From Furfurilactobacillus milii (lineage in GTDB: Bacteria > Bacillota > Bacilli > Lactobacillales > Lactobacillaceae), in the NCBI RefSeq assembly GCF_009864005.1, contig NZ_WEZQ01000014.1, forward strand, positions 1 through 64,000: a stretch of 64,000 bases of DNA, in the 5' to 3' direction. The notes beneath the pieces were generated by a model. The model did not search any database, was not told the DNA's origin, and worked only from the letters and a program-made list of their open reading frames with translations. Positions 1 through 4,546 of this stretch are shown in pieces. The position numbers and the translations under genes were made by a program. Each line of letters opens with the position of its first letter. Position 1 is the first letter of the stretch.

Positions 1-191
1 TAACCAACGCCCCCTTAAAGTACTTAACTGGCAAACACCTTACCAAGTGATGCTGACTAATTTGTCAAAAAATTCGGATCAAATTTGCAATCTACCTTAC
101 ATTAATCATCGAAAGCGATTTCATTTTTCACAAAGTTTCGATATTGGAAATTTATGTCGAAACTTTGATAAGCAGTAATTAAAAAACTGTC
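1..191 (+). promoter_or_regulatory. pox upstream region with near-cre site and long inverted repeat
   Basis: This stretch has no gene I can support. CGAAAGCGATTTCA at 110-123 matches the catabolite responsive element consensus TGWAANCGNTNWCA at all but the first base. CAAAGTTTCGA (131-141) and TCGAAACTTTG (157-167) form a perfect 11-bp inverted repeat just upstream of the pox ribosome binding site. CcpA control of pyruvate oxidase is known in lactobacilli; its use here is inferred. Confidence 0.5.
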
Positions 192-215
192 ATGATTTAT
201 GAAAGGAGACCAGAT

Positions 216-2081
216 ATGGCCAATAAGATTAGTGGTTCAGATGCAGTGTTGAAGGTAATTGAAGCGTGGGGCGTGGATCATATTTTTGGTTACCCTGGTG
301 GTTCATTTGACTCAACAATGAACGCTCTTTATAACCAGAGTAATAAATTGAAGTTCATTCAGGTTCGTCACGAAGAGGCTGGCGCATTAGCTGCCTCAGC
401 GGAATCAAAGTTAACTGGTAAGATTGGCGTTTGTTTTGGATCAGCAGGCCCCGGTGCCATCCACTTAATGAATGGATTATATGATGCTCGTCATGACCAC
501 GCACCGTTGCTGGCCATTGTGGCTCAGGTGCCTTCAAGCAATATGAACCGCGATTTCTTCCAGGCCATGGATGAGGAACCTGCTTTCAACGATGTTGCCG
601 TTTGGAATAAAACCGCAATGAACGCTGAAGGTTTGCCACAGCTGGTCGACGAGGGGATTCGGCACGCTTATAAGTATCACGGCGTTGCTGTATTGACGAT
701 TCCTAAAGACTTTGGCTGGGCCATGATTGACGATACGTATGAATCAAACGCGGTTAATCACGTTGCACCACTATATCCAGAACCAGACCCGCAAAAAATC
801 GATGAAGCTGTTAAATTGATCGAACAGGCTAAGGCGCCCATGATTTACTTCGGTAAAGGTGCGTTTGGCGCTGCTGATGAATTAAAGGCTGTTTCCGAAA
901 AGTTTAAGATGCCATTGGTTTCATCCGTTTTGGGTAAAGGTGTTTTGGATGAAACGTATCCAGCCTACATGGGCTCAACAGGTCGGGTTGCACCTAAACC
1001 AGGTGCTGACCTTGGCTTTTCTACTGATCTGATTGTTTGGGTCGGTAATGATTCACCGTTTAGTTCGATGCTGTTTACTCCAAAGGCGAAGGTTATTCAG
1101 ATTGATGTAGACTCGGAAAAGCTTGGCAAACGTCATCATATCGACGTGCCAGTTCTCGCTGACGCTAAGAAAGCATTGGCCGCCATCGCAGCTAAAGGTG
1201 AACAGCAGGAACCAAGTGCTTTTTATAAGGCTGCGTTAGCTGATAAAGAAAATTGGCGCGCTTGGCAAGACAGTTTCAAAGATGATGAAGAAGTACCGCT
1301 TCGTCCAGAACCCGTCTTTAACGTGCTGAATCAAACGGCTAGTGATAAAGCCGTCTTTGCTGTTGATGTTGGTAACGTCAACATTAATTTTGAACGGTTA
1401 GTTGATATTCATGGTGATCAAAAATGGACGACTTCCGGTCAATACGCAACCATGGGTTATGGCTTGCCGGCTGCGATTGCTGCAAAAATCAATTACCCAC
1501 ACCGGGATGTATACAGTTTGAGCGGTGACGGTGCGTTTGCTATGTTGATGGAGGAAATTCTGACTCAGGTTAAGTATCACCTGAATATCGTGAACATCGT
1601 CTTCAGCAATGAAACGCTGGGCTTTATCGAAGCCGAACAAAAAGATGACAGTAATCAACCACTCTCCGGTGTCGATCTGCCAGCAACAGATTGGGCCGCA
1701 ATTGCCCGCGGAATGGGTGCAGAAGCTTATACTGTTAAGACGCTGGATGACTTCAAACAAGCCATGGCTGCCGCAAAGCAGGCAAGTGCGCCAGTTGTCA
1801 TTGACGTGAAGTTTACTCATGAAATGCCATTGACGACGCAACACATGTTCCTTGATCCGAGCTTCCAGCCTAAGGACCAAGTGGATGCCTTTGTTGAAAA
1901 GTATCAAGCTCAGGCGTTGAAGCCATTTAGCTACTTTTTGAAGCAAGCTTCCGGTAATAGTGATGATGAAGCCGATGCATCGACAGGTGCTTCGGAAGAC
2001 ACAGAGGAAGACACACCTGCTGAAGCTGACACGCAGTCAGGCGATATTGATGCTTCAACTGGGGCCTCTGAGGAAGATTAG
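216..2081 (+). CDS. pox: Pyruvate oxidase (TPP- and FAD-dependent)
   Basis: Converts pyruvate, phosphate and O2 to acetyl phosphate, CO2 and H2O2 in the cytoplasm. The 621-aa protein has the TPP-enzyme layout: N-terminal pyrimidine-binding domain with the catalytic Glu in RHEEAGALAA (about residue 55), a central FAD-type domain, and a C-terminal PP domain with the GDGAFAM...N metal/TPP motif near residue 435. The ATG at 216 is chosen because GAAAGGAG at 201-208 is well spaced; an in-frame ATG at 192 lacks a ribosome binding site. The length slightly exceeds the usual roughly 600 aa because of an acidic C-terminal tail in which DASTGASE occurs twice. A near-cre site lies upstream. The assignment over acetolactate synthase rests on overall similarity, and its position as a single gene fits pox. 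Confidence 0.93.
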   Translation: MANKISGSDAVLKVIEAWGVDHIFGYPGGSFDSTMNALYNQSNKLKFIQVRHEEAGALAASAESKLTGKIGVCFGSAGPGAIHLMNGLYDARHDHAPLLAIVAQVPSSNMNRDFFQAMDEEPAFNDVAVWNKTAMNAEGLPQLVDEGIRHAYKYHGVAVLTIPKDFGWAMIDDTYESNAVNHVAPLYPEPDPQKIDEAVKLIEQAKAPMIYFGKGAFGAADELKAVSEKFKMPLVSSVLGKGVLDETYPAYMGSTGRVAPKPGADLGFSTDLIVWVGNDSPFSSMLFTPKAKVIQIDVDSEKLGKRHHIDVPVLADAKKALAAIAAKGEQQEPSAFYKAALADKENWRAWQDSFKDDEEVPLRPEPVFNVLNQTASDKAVFAVDVGNVNINFERLVDIHGDQKWTTSGQYATMGYGLPAAIAAKINYPHRDVYSLSGDGAFAMLMEEILTQVKYHLNIVNIVFSNETLGFIEAEQKDDSNQPLSGVDLPATDWAAIARGMGAEAYTVKTLDDFKQAMAAAKQASAPVVIDVKFTHEMPLTTQHMFLDPSFQPKDQVDAFVEKYQAQALKPFSYFLKQASGNSDDEADASTGASEDTEEDTPAEADTQSGDIDASTGASEED

Positions 2082-2147
2082 TTGTTAATTTAATCATTGA
2101 GTTTGTTCGCTAACCGATAAATACGAGATTGAATTTCAGCGAATACA

Positions 2148-2210
2148 AAATGCCATGTGCTAAAGTCGCCACAAAAAGTGGGGATGATAGACATGGCATT
2201 TTTGTTTAAT
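2148..2210 (+). terminator. Terminator-like hairpin overlapping the next start codon
   Basis: AAATGCCATGT (2148-2158) pairs with ACATGGCATTT (2191-2201), followed by TTGTTT. It could terminate pox, but its 3' arm contains the ATG of the following gene and its loop carries the GTGGGG ribosome binding site. It may therefore act as an attenuator. Confidence 0.6.
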
Positions 2211-2834
2211 TGGGCCGAAGTAGAGCCGGACGAATACGCAATGACAACGACCGATGGCAGTATCGTTGATTTAGGTGAACGAAATTACCTGCGTATCGAT
2301 GGTAATGGAGATGAAGATAGCATCGAATTTCGTCGGGATGCGGCCAGCATGATAGCACTTGGCGAGTTCTTGTCCGAGGCGCCGAAACATGATATCACGA
2401 TTGCAGCATTTCGCAATTTCGTTCATTATCCACTGATGGTTAACTGGTATGGTGATTTGCACGTACCTCACGAACGTTTTCAGATGAGAATGAAACAACC
2501 TAACTTTATGCCAAACGAAGCTGTTACAGCGGCAATTGATCAATTACGTGGCAAAGTTCCCGTCGTTGGTGATGTAACCTATGAGCGATTCAAAGAAGGT
2601 CTGGAAGCGCAGGTGAGCCAAACTGGTCTAGCTACACCGGAATTAATCGAAAGATTACAAATGTTTATCGGCAATAGCCCGTTTGTGATTGAACATGGCG
2701 ATGATTGGCACCGAGAGCTGTATTTGAACGATGTGTCGACGTTGCCACAATCCCAATGGCAAATTATTTTGCGCCAACAAATTAGTGTTGCTGATCCAGT
2801 AGCGGCGCGCAATTTTCCGATCATCACAAATTGA
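2193..2834 (+). CDS. Hypothetical protein (213 aa)
   Basis: I do not recognise this protein. It is soluble, rather acidic, with no signal peptide or membrane segment. It has an N-terminal beta-rich stretch starting MAFLFNW, then FRNFVHYPLMVNWYG around residue 75-90. The start at 2193 is preferred over in-frame ATG 2184 and GTG-type starts further upstream because GTGGGG at 2178-2183 is about 9 bases away. The gene lies 110 bp after pox on the same strand, and its start codon sits inside a terminator-like hairpin, so its expression may depend on read-through from pox. A promoter for the riboswitch remnant follows directly. Confidence 0.7.
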   Translation: MAFLFNWAEVEPDEYAMTTTDGSIVDLGERNYLRIDGNGDEDSIEFRRDAASMIALGEFLSEAPKHDITIAAFRNFVHYPLMVNWYGDLHVPHERFQMRMKQPNFMPNEAVTAAIDQLRGKVPVVGDVTYERFKEGLEAQVSQTGLATPELIERLQMFIGNSPFVIEHGDDWHRELYLNDVSTLPQSQWQIILRQQISVADPVAARNFPIITN

Positions 2835-2852
2835 CTTGGGATAATTTTCACA

Positions 2853-2982
2853 TTGACAAACAATTTGAAAACTAATATCTTTGTGCCAGTTGAATAAATC
2901 ATTTCTTCGGGGCAGGGTGAAATTCCCGACCGACGGTGACAACAAGGTGTCGTTGGACAACTTGTTGAAGTCCGTGACCCGC
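2853..2982 (+). promoter_or_regulatory. Truncated FMN riboswitch (RFN element) with promoter
   Basis: TTGACA (2853-2858) and TATCTT (2877-2882), 18 bp apart, form a plausible promoter. From about 2904 the sequence matches the 5' half of the FMN riboswitch: CGGGGCAGGGTGAAATTCCC, ACCGACGGTGA, a variable P3 extension (CAACAAG/CTTGTTG) and AGTCCGTGACCCGC ending at 2982. The second half, normally with GGTGAAATTCC, ACCGAC and AGTCnGGATG-type segments, is absent. No complete riboflavin gene or transporter follows on this strand, so the element is an orphan remnant and probably cannot sense FMN. Confidence 0.88.
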
Positions 2983-2983
2983 G

Positions 2984-3082
2984 CAACAACGTGCTGGTGG
3001 CAAGGCTGGTAACAAAGGGAGTGACGTGGCAGCGGATATTCTTGAACTGATCGATCTGCACCAACAACTAGCTAATGTGTAG
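2984..3082 (+). pseudogene. ribH: 3' remnant of ribH (lumazine synthase)
   Basis: Read from 2984 in frame, the sequence encodes QQR-AGGKAGNKGSDVAADILELI... and ends at a TAG (3080-3082). The AGxKAGNKG segment followed by an Ala-rich helix and DLhxQL is the conserved C-terminus of lumazine synthase (RibH), the last enzyme before riboflavin synthase. There is no start codon or N-terminal part. It directly abuts the truncated FMN riboswitch, the expected product of a deletion spanning ribD-ribE-ribAB and most of ribH. Confidence 0.85.
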
Positions 3083-3105
3083 GTAATCTGTTGTTCACAT
3101 GTGAA

Positions 3106-3142
3106 TACAAAAAATCACGAGCCAACAGGACTCGTGATTTAC
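3106..3142 (-). terminator. gpx terminator
   Basis: AAATCACGAG (3112-3121) and CTCGTGATTT (3131-3140) form a hairpin followed by a U-run on the minus strand, just downstream of the peroxidase gene. It could also stop plus-strand transcription from the riboswitch remnant. Confidence 0.8.
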
Positions 3143-3154
3143 ATAGATAGATAA

Positions 3155-3631
3155 CTATTCGGCTTGGTTTAATGCGTCCACAATGTCCGTTTCAAACTTC
3201 TCAGGTTTTGTCTGTGGTGCATAGCGTTTGATGACTTGGCCGTCACGACCTACTAAGAACTTGGTAAAGTTCCATTTTATTCGACCATGACCAGCAGCAT
3301 CCTTTAAATAGGTGAATAACGGATCTTCATCGTCACCATTCACAGCAACACGCTTTGTCATCGGAAAGGTTACACCATAGTGAACTTGGCAAAAGTCATC
3401 CGTTTCTTCATCCGTCGCAAGCTCTTGGTGGAATTGATTTGACGGCAGGCCAAGGACATTGAAGCCCTGATCATGATACTGTTTGTACAGACTTTCCAAG
3501 CCTTCCAGCTGTGGCGCAAAGCCGCATTTGCTAGCAGTGTTTACAATCAAGAGAACTTGACCGCGATAGTTGTCTAATGGGATGGTTTGTCCGCTCATTT
3601 CAGTTTCCGAAAAATCATAGATTGATGCCAT
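3155..3631 (-). CDS. gpx: Glutathione peroxidase-type thiol peroxidase
   Basis: Reduces peroxides in the cytoplasm, in bacteria of this type probably with thioredoxin as donor. The 158-aa length is typical. The catalytic Cys lies in VNTASKCGFAPQ (about residue 36), the Gln in LPSNQFHQE and the Trp-Asn in KWNFTKFLVG, so the active-site set is complete. The start follows AAAGGAGCG with normal spacing. It is a single-gene unit between two terminators. Functionally it fits with the H2O2-producing pyruvate oxidase nearby, but no shared regulation is visible. Confidence 0.93.
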   Translation of the reverse strand: MASIYDFSETEMSGQTIPLDNYRGQVLLIVNTASKCGFAPQLEGLESLYKQYHDQGFNVLGLPSNQFHQELATDEETDDFCQVHYGVTFPMTKRVAVNGDDEDPLFTYLKDAAGHGRIKWNFTKFLVGRDGQVIKRYAPQTKPEKFETDIVDALNQAE

Positions 3632-3748
3632 TAAATGCGCTCCTTTCTAATTGTTTGATAGTGTTACATCATTACTTATGGTTATTGTGCGTCAATTTCA
3701 TAAATAATGCGAGAATCGGGATTTTACATTTTCGAGGAACATGATGAA

Positions 3749-3764
3749 CGTTTCACGTGAAACG
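3749..3764. promoter_or_regulatory. parS-like palindrome
   Basis: CGTTTCACGTGAAACG is a perfect 16-bp palindrome differing only in the outermost base pair from the Firmicutes ParB site TGTTTCACGTGAAACA. It lies in the intergenic region between gpx and the GlsB-like gene. Candidate chromosome-partition site; the match is seen, the function is inferred. Confidence 0.5.
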
Positions 3765-3830
3765 GAGAAAATGGAAGTACCCTTCCAAAATCAAAAATTA
3801 GCCAAATATGGAAATATACTTCCATTTCTC
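3765..3830. repeat. Inverted repeat between gpx and the GlsB-like gene
   Basis: GAGAAAATGGAAGTA (3765-3779) and TACTTCCATTTCTC (3817-3830) are near-perfect inverted copies, with a further internal TGGAAG/CTTCCA pair. It may be an extended hairpin or a protein-binding site; the function is unknown. Confidence 0.45.
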
Positions 3831-3840
3831 ACAAGGTAGA

Positions 3841-3885
3841 TCATAGAAAAAAGCCATCCTCTTTTTGGGATGGCTTTTTCTATGA
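3841..3885 (-). terminator. Terminator of the GlsB-like gene
   Basis: Long hairpin TCATAGAAAAAAGCCATCC / GGATGGCTTTTTCTATGA with U-runs on both strands, immediately after the minus-strand membrane protein gene. Confidence 0.85.
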
Positions 3886-3889
3886 AACA

Positions 3890-4147
3890 TCATTCTTTAC
3901 GTTTGCGCATGCCGAAAATTGCTGAAACAATCAATACCAGAATTACCGCTCCAATAATGGATGGGAAGACTGCCATGCCGGCAAGCATTGGTCCCCAGTG
4001 ACCGAAAATCATTTGACCGAGCCACGCACCGACCAGACCGGCAATAATGTTACCGATGATGCCTGCTGGCAAGTCACGATTTGTGATCATCCCAGCCACA
4101 ACACCGATTAATCCACCAACAATAAGTGACCATAACCATCCAAACAT
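3890..4147 (-). CDS. GlsB/YeaQ/YmgE family stress membrane protein
   Basis: Small (85-aa) integral membrane protein with three hydrophobic Gly-rich helices, beginning MFGWLWSLIVGGLIGVVAGM, with internal NIIAGLVGAWLGQ, the hallmark pattern of the transglycosylase-associated GlsB/YmgE family, and a basic C-terminus (GMRKRKE). Members are induced by envelope or general stress in lactic acid bacteria, and their molecular role is poorly defined. The start at 4147 is preferred to 4153 because AAGGAG lies only one base from the latter. Single-gene unit with its own terminator. Confidence 0.88.
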   Translation of the reverse strand: MFGWLWSLIVGGLIGVVAGMITNRDLPAGIIGNIIAGLVGAWLGQMIFGHWGPMLAGMAVFPSIIGAVILVLIVSAIFGMRKRKE

Positions 4148-4241
4148 AAGCATGCTCCTTTCTTATGAAAGCAATAAGGTTTTGCGTTGATTTAAAGGTA
4201 TCAAGAAATGATGAATAGCTCAATTTTTATGCTTAAAATAA

Positions 4242-4294
4242 TTCACATTTGTGGTACATTTACACTTGTGCTACATTCACAGATGTGATATAGT
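4242..4294 (+). promoter_or_regulatory. Three 17-bp iterons over the xre-clpL promoter
   Basis: Three consecutive 17-bp units (4242-4258, 4259-4275, 4276-4292) each carry a palindromic core of the form YACANNTGTG: CACATTTGTG, TACACTTGTG and CACAGATGTG, with centres exactly 17 bp apart. They overlap a promoter with TTGTGC (4266-4271) and TATAGT (4289-4294), 17 bp apart. This is the geometry of an autoregulated operator; binding by the adjacent Xre-type protein is inferred. Confidence 0.65.
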
Positions 4295-4324
4295 ATTTAT
4301 CGAAGGGAGGTTACCGAGAATGTC

Positions 4325-4546
4325 ATGAAAATTGATGTGAAGACGTATTTGGTCGAGCATGACTTGACCATCTATGAGGTGGCTAAGCGCAGTGGCTATG
4401 GGTATACCACCTTACACAAGTCGTTTAATAAACGACAAACTGATGCGACCCCGCTGAACATAAGGGATCTTGATGCATTAGCGCGTGCACAGCACGTTCA
4501 AATGTGGGAAATTCTAAGAGATCTGGAGTCACATTATATGAACTAG
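4325..4546 (+). CDS. Small Xre-type helix-turn-helix protein
   Basis: A 73-aa protein that is essentially only a DNA-binding domain. The segment LTIYEVAKRSGYGYTTLHKS (about residues 14-33) reads as a helix-turn-helix. It starts after GGGAGG (4305-4310); an ATG at 4320 runs out of frame into TGA. It is followed 50 bp later by clpL, with no terminator between them, so the two are probably cotranscribed from the iteron-containing promoter. I infer that it controls its own operon and hence clpL. No CIRCE or clear CtsR box is visible, which makes it the best local candidate for clpL control. Confidence 0.75.
   Translation: MKIDVKTYLVEHDLTIYEVAKRSGYGYTTLHKSFNKRQTDATPLNIRDLDALARAQHVQMWEILRDLESHYMN

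Follow-up and report, generated by a model that had tools for sequence, protein, structure and literature searches.

The FMN (flavin mononucleotide) riboswitch, described by the Rfam family RF00050, is found in lactic acid bacteria ahead of genes for the synthesis or uptake of riboflavin, and loss of riboflavin synthesis by deletion is already known in this group. Lactobacillus plantarum WCFS1 carries an incomplete rib operon, partially deleted in comparison with a prototrophic strain, and does not grow without riboflavin (Burgess et al. 2006, PMC1570366). F. rossiae DSM 15814 is reported to grow in riboflavin-free medium, semi-defined and containing peptone (PMC4180280). The locus described here lies at positions 2853–3082 of a window of 64,000 bases (G000:C7:1–64000) from a draft Furfurilactobacillus genome of 2,732,926 bases in 30 contigs (G000), in which half of an FMN riboswitch is joined to the end of ribH, the lumazine synthase gene. 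We read it as the scar of a deleted rib operon, in a predicted riboflavin auxotroph that would live on uptake, with a probability of about 0.96.

The deletion is a clear example of a type of event already known in lactic acid bacteria. This genome and WCFS1 are alike in being lactic acid bacteria in which part of rib was lost by deletion; the present genome differs in having no complete rib gene and in its breakpoints, which lie in a six-base repeat, one of them inside the riboswitch. In F. rossiae DSM 15814 the locus and its flanks are identical in place, but the operon is complete. Compared with the RF00050 riboswitch, the aptamer can be readily recognised in its 5′ half, whereas the 3′ half, the terminator and the gene downstream are gone. 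No description of a half-riboswitch scar was found among the titles and abstract beginnings listed, which is no claim that none is in print.

The scar and the undeleted operon of relatives

The left part of the scar (2853–2986, plus strand) consists of a promoter-like site, TTGACA-17-TATCTT (2853–2881), and the 5′ part of the riboswitch aptamer (2899–2986). The same block precedes the operon in three relatives, so the promoter would once have served rib; it now stands without a gene. RF00050 aligns at 2899–3041 with 31.6 bits (E 3.1e-5, in a search of 800 bases), below its gathering score of 66.2 bits, and Rfam at gathering threshold gave no match in the whole window. In this alignment the 5′ half has high posterior probability and the 3′ half is mostly missing or of low probability; good scores return only over about the final dozen columns, where several of the pairs are non-standard.

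The right part (2981–3082, plus strand) is the end of ribH, that is, the last 33 codons and the stop (AQQRAGGKAGNKGSDVAADILELIDLHQQLANV). The frame at 2978–3082 translates to PAQQRAGGKAGNKGSDVAADILELIDLHQQLANV, with the stop at 3080–3082, and from AQQR onward it matches the C-terminal part of RibH from F. milii FUA3430 (G001), where the gene is intact, as the comparison of both DNA and protein ends showed; Pfam and NCBIfam both recognise that protein as a complete lumazine synthase. The remnant is not open as a gene: an in-frame TGA stands at 2975, and the in-frame start-type codons are limited to GTG at 3026 and 3077. With 33 codons left, it gave no PF00885 domain match over the cut-off. Then, the earlier note, which was made from the letters alone and read here a promoter and the 5′ half of the riboswitch fused to the C-terminal end of RibH, was borne out.

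The comparison of 2853–3082 with the six Furfurilactobacillus genomes of the sample (G000–G005, one genome per species) revealed the undeleted state. The query falls into two blocks in F. milii FUA3430, F. milii FUA3583 (G002) and F. rossiae DSM 15814, and also in G005 (87% complete, 350 contigs), where they are spread over two contigs. Block 1 corresponds to query 1–134 (16–134 in G005) and block 2 to query 129–230 (ending at 225 in F. rossiae and at 223 in G005); G004 has the leader block only, with 78% identity. An exact 57-base leader pattern likewise found the two F. milii strains and F. rossiae DSM 15814, all of them Furfurilactobacillus. In these three relatives identity is 96–97% for the left block and 87–98% for the right one, and the blocks, separated by 3.7 to 3.9 kb, keep order and strand. 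Since identity, order, strand and spacing agree, the two-block match is not a matter of chance.

Between the same two blocks, the three relatives carry the remainder of the riboswitch and the genes ribD-ribE-ribBA-ribH, as four full-length frames in this order after the leader. The four proteins of F. milii FUA3430 fall into the expected families in both Pfam and NCBIfam; for G002–G005 the search covered ribH, which was found in each. In G004 ribD forms two overlapping frames, so that it may be broken or contain a sequence error, and its ribE, ribBA and ribH frames are intact. The rib sequences of G005 are on two contigs, the first with the leader and a ribD frame that is shortened, the second with the end of ribE together with ribBA and ribH. 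RF00050 is complete in the leaders of all five relatives (110.0–115.5 bits), and none of these five genomes presents the short form.

The two blocks overlap by the six bases GCGCAA. In the three relatives this motif occurs at both breakpoints, one copy within the aptamer and one near the end of ribH, and in the scar there is a single copy (2981–2986). The join had been placed earlier at about 2982; the junction is indeed there, but as this common six-base stretch and not as one base. The piece missing in relation to FUA3430, FUA3583 and DSM 15814 measures 3,663, 3,661 and 3,862 bp, respectively. The event is thereby resolved to the base, as a deletion of the rib operon with defined breakpoints. 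It has the pattern of a deletion between short direct repeats, with one copy at each breakpoint before the event and one copy after it. Random breakpoint pairs of similar spacing shared at least six bases in 373, 365 and 325 of 200,000 draws for the three relatives, figures that slightly understate the chance rate because draws running off the locus were scored as misses.

The deletion would have removed the rest of the FMN aptamer, the terminator, ribD, ribE, ribBA and all of ribH but its end. A single step is the simplest course for this, with the two GCGCAA copies recombining or the replication machinery slipping from one to the other. A single deletion from inside the riboswitch to near the end of ribH had been proposed from the scar itself, and the matching breakpoints in the three relatives support it. 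Lumazine synthase is matched in all five other genomes of the genus and not in this one; a single loss on its own branch is therefore the simplest account.

What remains should not work as a switch, to judge from its sequence, because the terminator and the greater part of the aptamer's 3′ half are lost and the next gene, a peroxidase gene, is on the opposite strand. The terminator hairpin string of the three relatives (a hairpin plus T-run, called a terminator by eye) is absent from window positions 2001–4500. In addition, no plus-strand open reading frame (ORF) of at least 30 amino acids starts between the scar and the stop of the peroxidase gene gpx at 3155.

Riboflavin synthesis and uptake in the rest of the genome

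The assembly, listed with a completeness of 100% and a contamination of 2.47, gave no match to PF00885 (DMRL_synthase), PF00925 (GTP_cyclohydro2), PF00677 (Lum_binding) or PF01872 (RibD_C) in family searches that were positive in 14/14, 10/14, 11/14 and 14/14 control genomes, respectively. At the DNA level, a query with the leader and ribD of FUA3430, the rest of the operon being outside the query, had 20 matches in the genome: the scar, the other riboswitch and 18 to a short dispersed repeat. This repeat sits between the riboswitch leader and ribD in FUA3430 (L006, about 1865–1947; query 365–447), and its 18 matches in G000, of 81–91% identity, are on contigs C5, C12, C13, C14, C20, C21 and C28.

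One full FMN riboswitch is retained (102.2 bits), located before a gene for a 214-amino-acid S component of an energy-coupling factor (ECF) transporter. The three PDB matches listed for this protein are all named as riboflavin transporters, the best being 3p5n (E 1e-21), and it is accordingly classed as RibU-type. This arrangement is common to the genus: all six genomes have an extra match of 34–36 bases to query 52–87, corresponding to the riboswitch core at a second place, and in all six it adjoins a RibU homologue, with 65–98% identity in the other five. RibF and four CbiQ/EcfT-family matches are also present. Then, the gene content is that expected of a RibU-dependent auxotrophic lactic acid bacterium, with four families of synthesis genes missing and transporter and RibF present.

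Riboflavin synthesis would thus be gone and the vitamin supplied by uptake, with the RibU-type ECF transporter, which has an intact FMN riboswitch to itself, importing riboflavin and RibF converting it to FMN and flavin adenine dinucleotide (FAD), while the remnant of the old riboswitch would be inert. The earlier note expected auxotrophy unless rib genes existed elsewhere, and the search of the genome argues in its favour. Riboflavin auxotrophy of this strain is a strong prediction.

Age of the loss, alternatives and flanking genes

Some points weigh against this interpretation. The RibB domain, PF00926, entered the searches through its partner, the RibA domain, to which it is fused in FUA3430 and which this genome lacks. 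For the RibU-type protein, the ECF matches in NCBIfam are all below cut-off, and the substrate is assigned from the PDB match and the riboswitch. The scar is close to the start of its contig, and, with one genome per species in the sample, the deletion may or may not be common to all strains of the species. About 0.2% of random pairs are expected to have a six-base repeat, which is compatible with a short-repeat deletion and is no proof of it. Finally, earlier and smaller deletions within the operon may have preceded the final state.

The loss could be a trait of the strain and not of the species, perhaps acquired in rich food or laboratory medium. This is compatible with the deletion of the operon, and we regard it as a real possibility, though the less probable one. 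Changes private to G000 among G000–G003 affect 4/230 positions of the scar and 27/2,087 of the flanks (Fisher p 0.54); the flank count is raised by private changes that are clustered on the 3′ side. Within the scar they are distributed as 3/134 in the leader and 1/102 in the ribH end, six positions being common to both, and in the flanks as 8/678 and 19/1,409. A raised rate of change in the scar relative to the flanks was looked for and not found, nor was any sign of long decay. As divergence of the scar is not measurably above that of the flanks, the deletion looks fairly recent, which favours a strain-level loss, as does the sampling of one genome per species. Nothing decisive stands against it, and the four private changes of the scar are not datable to before or after the deletion.

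It is very improbable that the operon is real and was dropped or mis-joined during assembly. The draft state in 30 contigs, the contamination value of 2.47 and the fact that the scar begins 2.85 kb into its contig of 199 kb would allow such an artefact. On the other hand, the gene order of the relatives is kept in both flanks, the four rib families are missing from the entire assembly, and a six-base repeat is much too short to mislead an assembler. Least probable of all is a short functional RNA or leader that was never with an operon and whose RibH-like tail arose by chance or was acquired separately: the stretch 2888–3145, which includes the hairpin of the peroxidase gene, folds somewhat better than its shuffles (z −2.15; 7/200 as good), but in three relatives each half finds its counterpart at one end of the operon, and ribH is present in 5/5 other genomes of the genus.

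The rib operon deletion left its flanks in place. To the right, a glutathione peroxidase-like gene (3155–3631, minus strand; PF00255) occupies the same place in the three relatives, and between it and the ribH end there is a hairpin (3112–3140), conserved in the same genomes and scored as a terminator on the minus strand only. The freed promoter lies about 270 bases from this convergent gene, and no plus-strand terminator was called between the scar and it; the scar might therefore yield an RNA running antisense into gpx. That the old rib promoter, now independent of FMN, makes such an RNA constantly and alters gpx expression is a speculative and improbable idea.

To the left, an ORF of 225 amino acids without Pfam match (2157–2834, plus strand) is also in the same place in the three relatives, and a similar frame occurs in G005. 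The left flank aligns from window position 97–98 on in F. milii FUA3583 and F. rossiae DSM 15814. F. milii FUA3430 has no alignment left of window position 2099 (comparison with window 1–2098); it presents there an ABC transporter-like ORF on the minus strand, in the place of the pyruvate oxidase-like gene of the window and of the other two genomes (names given by eye).

Riboflavin loci in the Lactobacillaceae

Among 397 Lactobacillaceae genomes, lumazine synthase was matched in 133 (132 over the cut-off, a few of them fragments or broken) and the FMN riboswitch was over its cut-off in 386. Thus lumazine synthase was unmatched in 264 genomes, among which at least 253 retain the riboswitch. The riboswitch search used strict filters, by which weak matches are lost and decayed relics undercounted. 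Genomes lacking ribH are therefore the majority in the family sample, and in the genus they are the exception (1/6).

Nine genomes, including the present one, have two or more riboswitch matches and no ribH match, by inspection by eye. The present genome, G105 and G196 look like those with operon relics. G105 has a weak riboswitch match (53.2 bits, below the cut-off), downstream of which 14 residues match RibD (E 0.009). G196 has a riboswitch over the cut-off (L081, G196:C1:8980–9103; 78.3 bits), and the surrounding 12 kb gave no rib match that convinces. Scraps of ribH, of 38 and 23 residues, occur in G039 and G130. These four genomes resemble the scar genome in having possible rib relics and no whole lumazine synthase domain, but they are older or less clear cases, and in none of them is half a riboswitch joined to the end of ribH.

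The remaining second riboswitches were rejected as scars. In G215, G344, G366 and G382 an ECF-type membrane protein ORF follows each riboswitch, and in G386 a RibF-like ORF follows the second one (both by eye); the second match in G031 (21.5 bits, E 0.008), which lies partly or wholly over an ORF, is probably due to chance. In G386, which has no lumazine synthase match, the full FMN riboswitch stands directly 5′ of the RibF-like ORF (L078; G386:C21, reverse complement 1636–2553). In another genus (g37), the ribH match falls into two pieces, read in different frames, in G073 (L086, G073:C27) and G330:C34, and has an internal stop in G125:C1. These are possibly pseudogene stages of the same loss.

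The locus presents, at the resolution of single bases, how one simple deletion would turn a riboflavin maker into a predicted auxotroph, in a genus whose other sampled members keep ribH. The deletion predicts a simple growth phenotype. Furfurilactobacillus is a sourdough-type lactic acid bacterium, and in food use this strain is expected to consume vitamin B2 and not to supply it.
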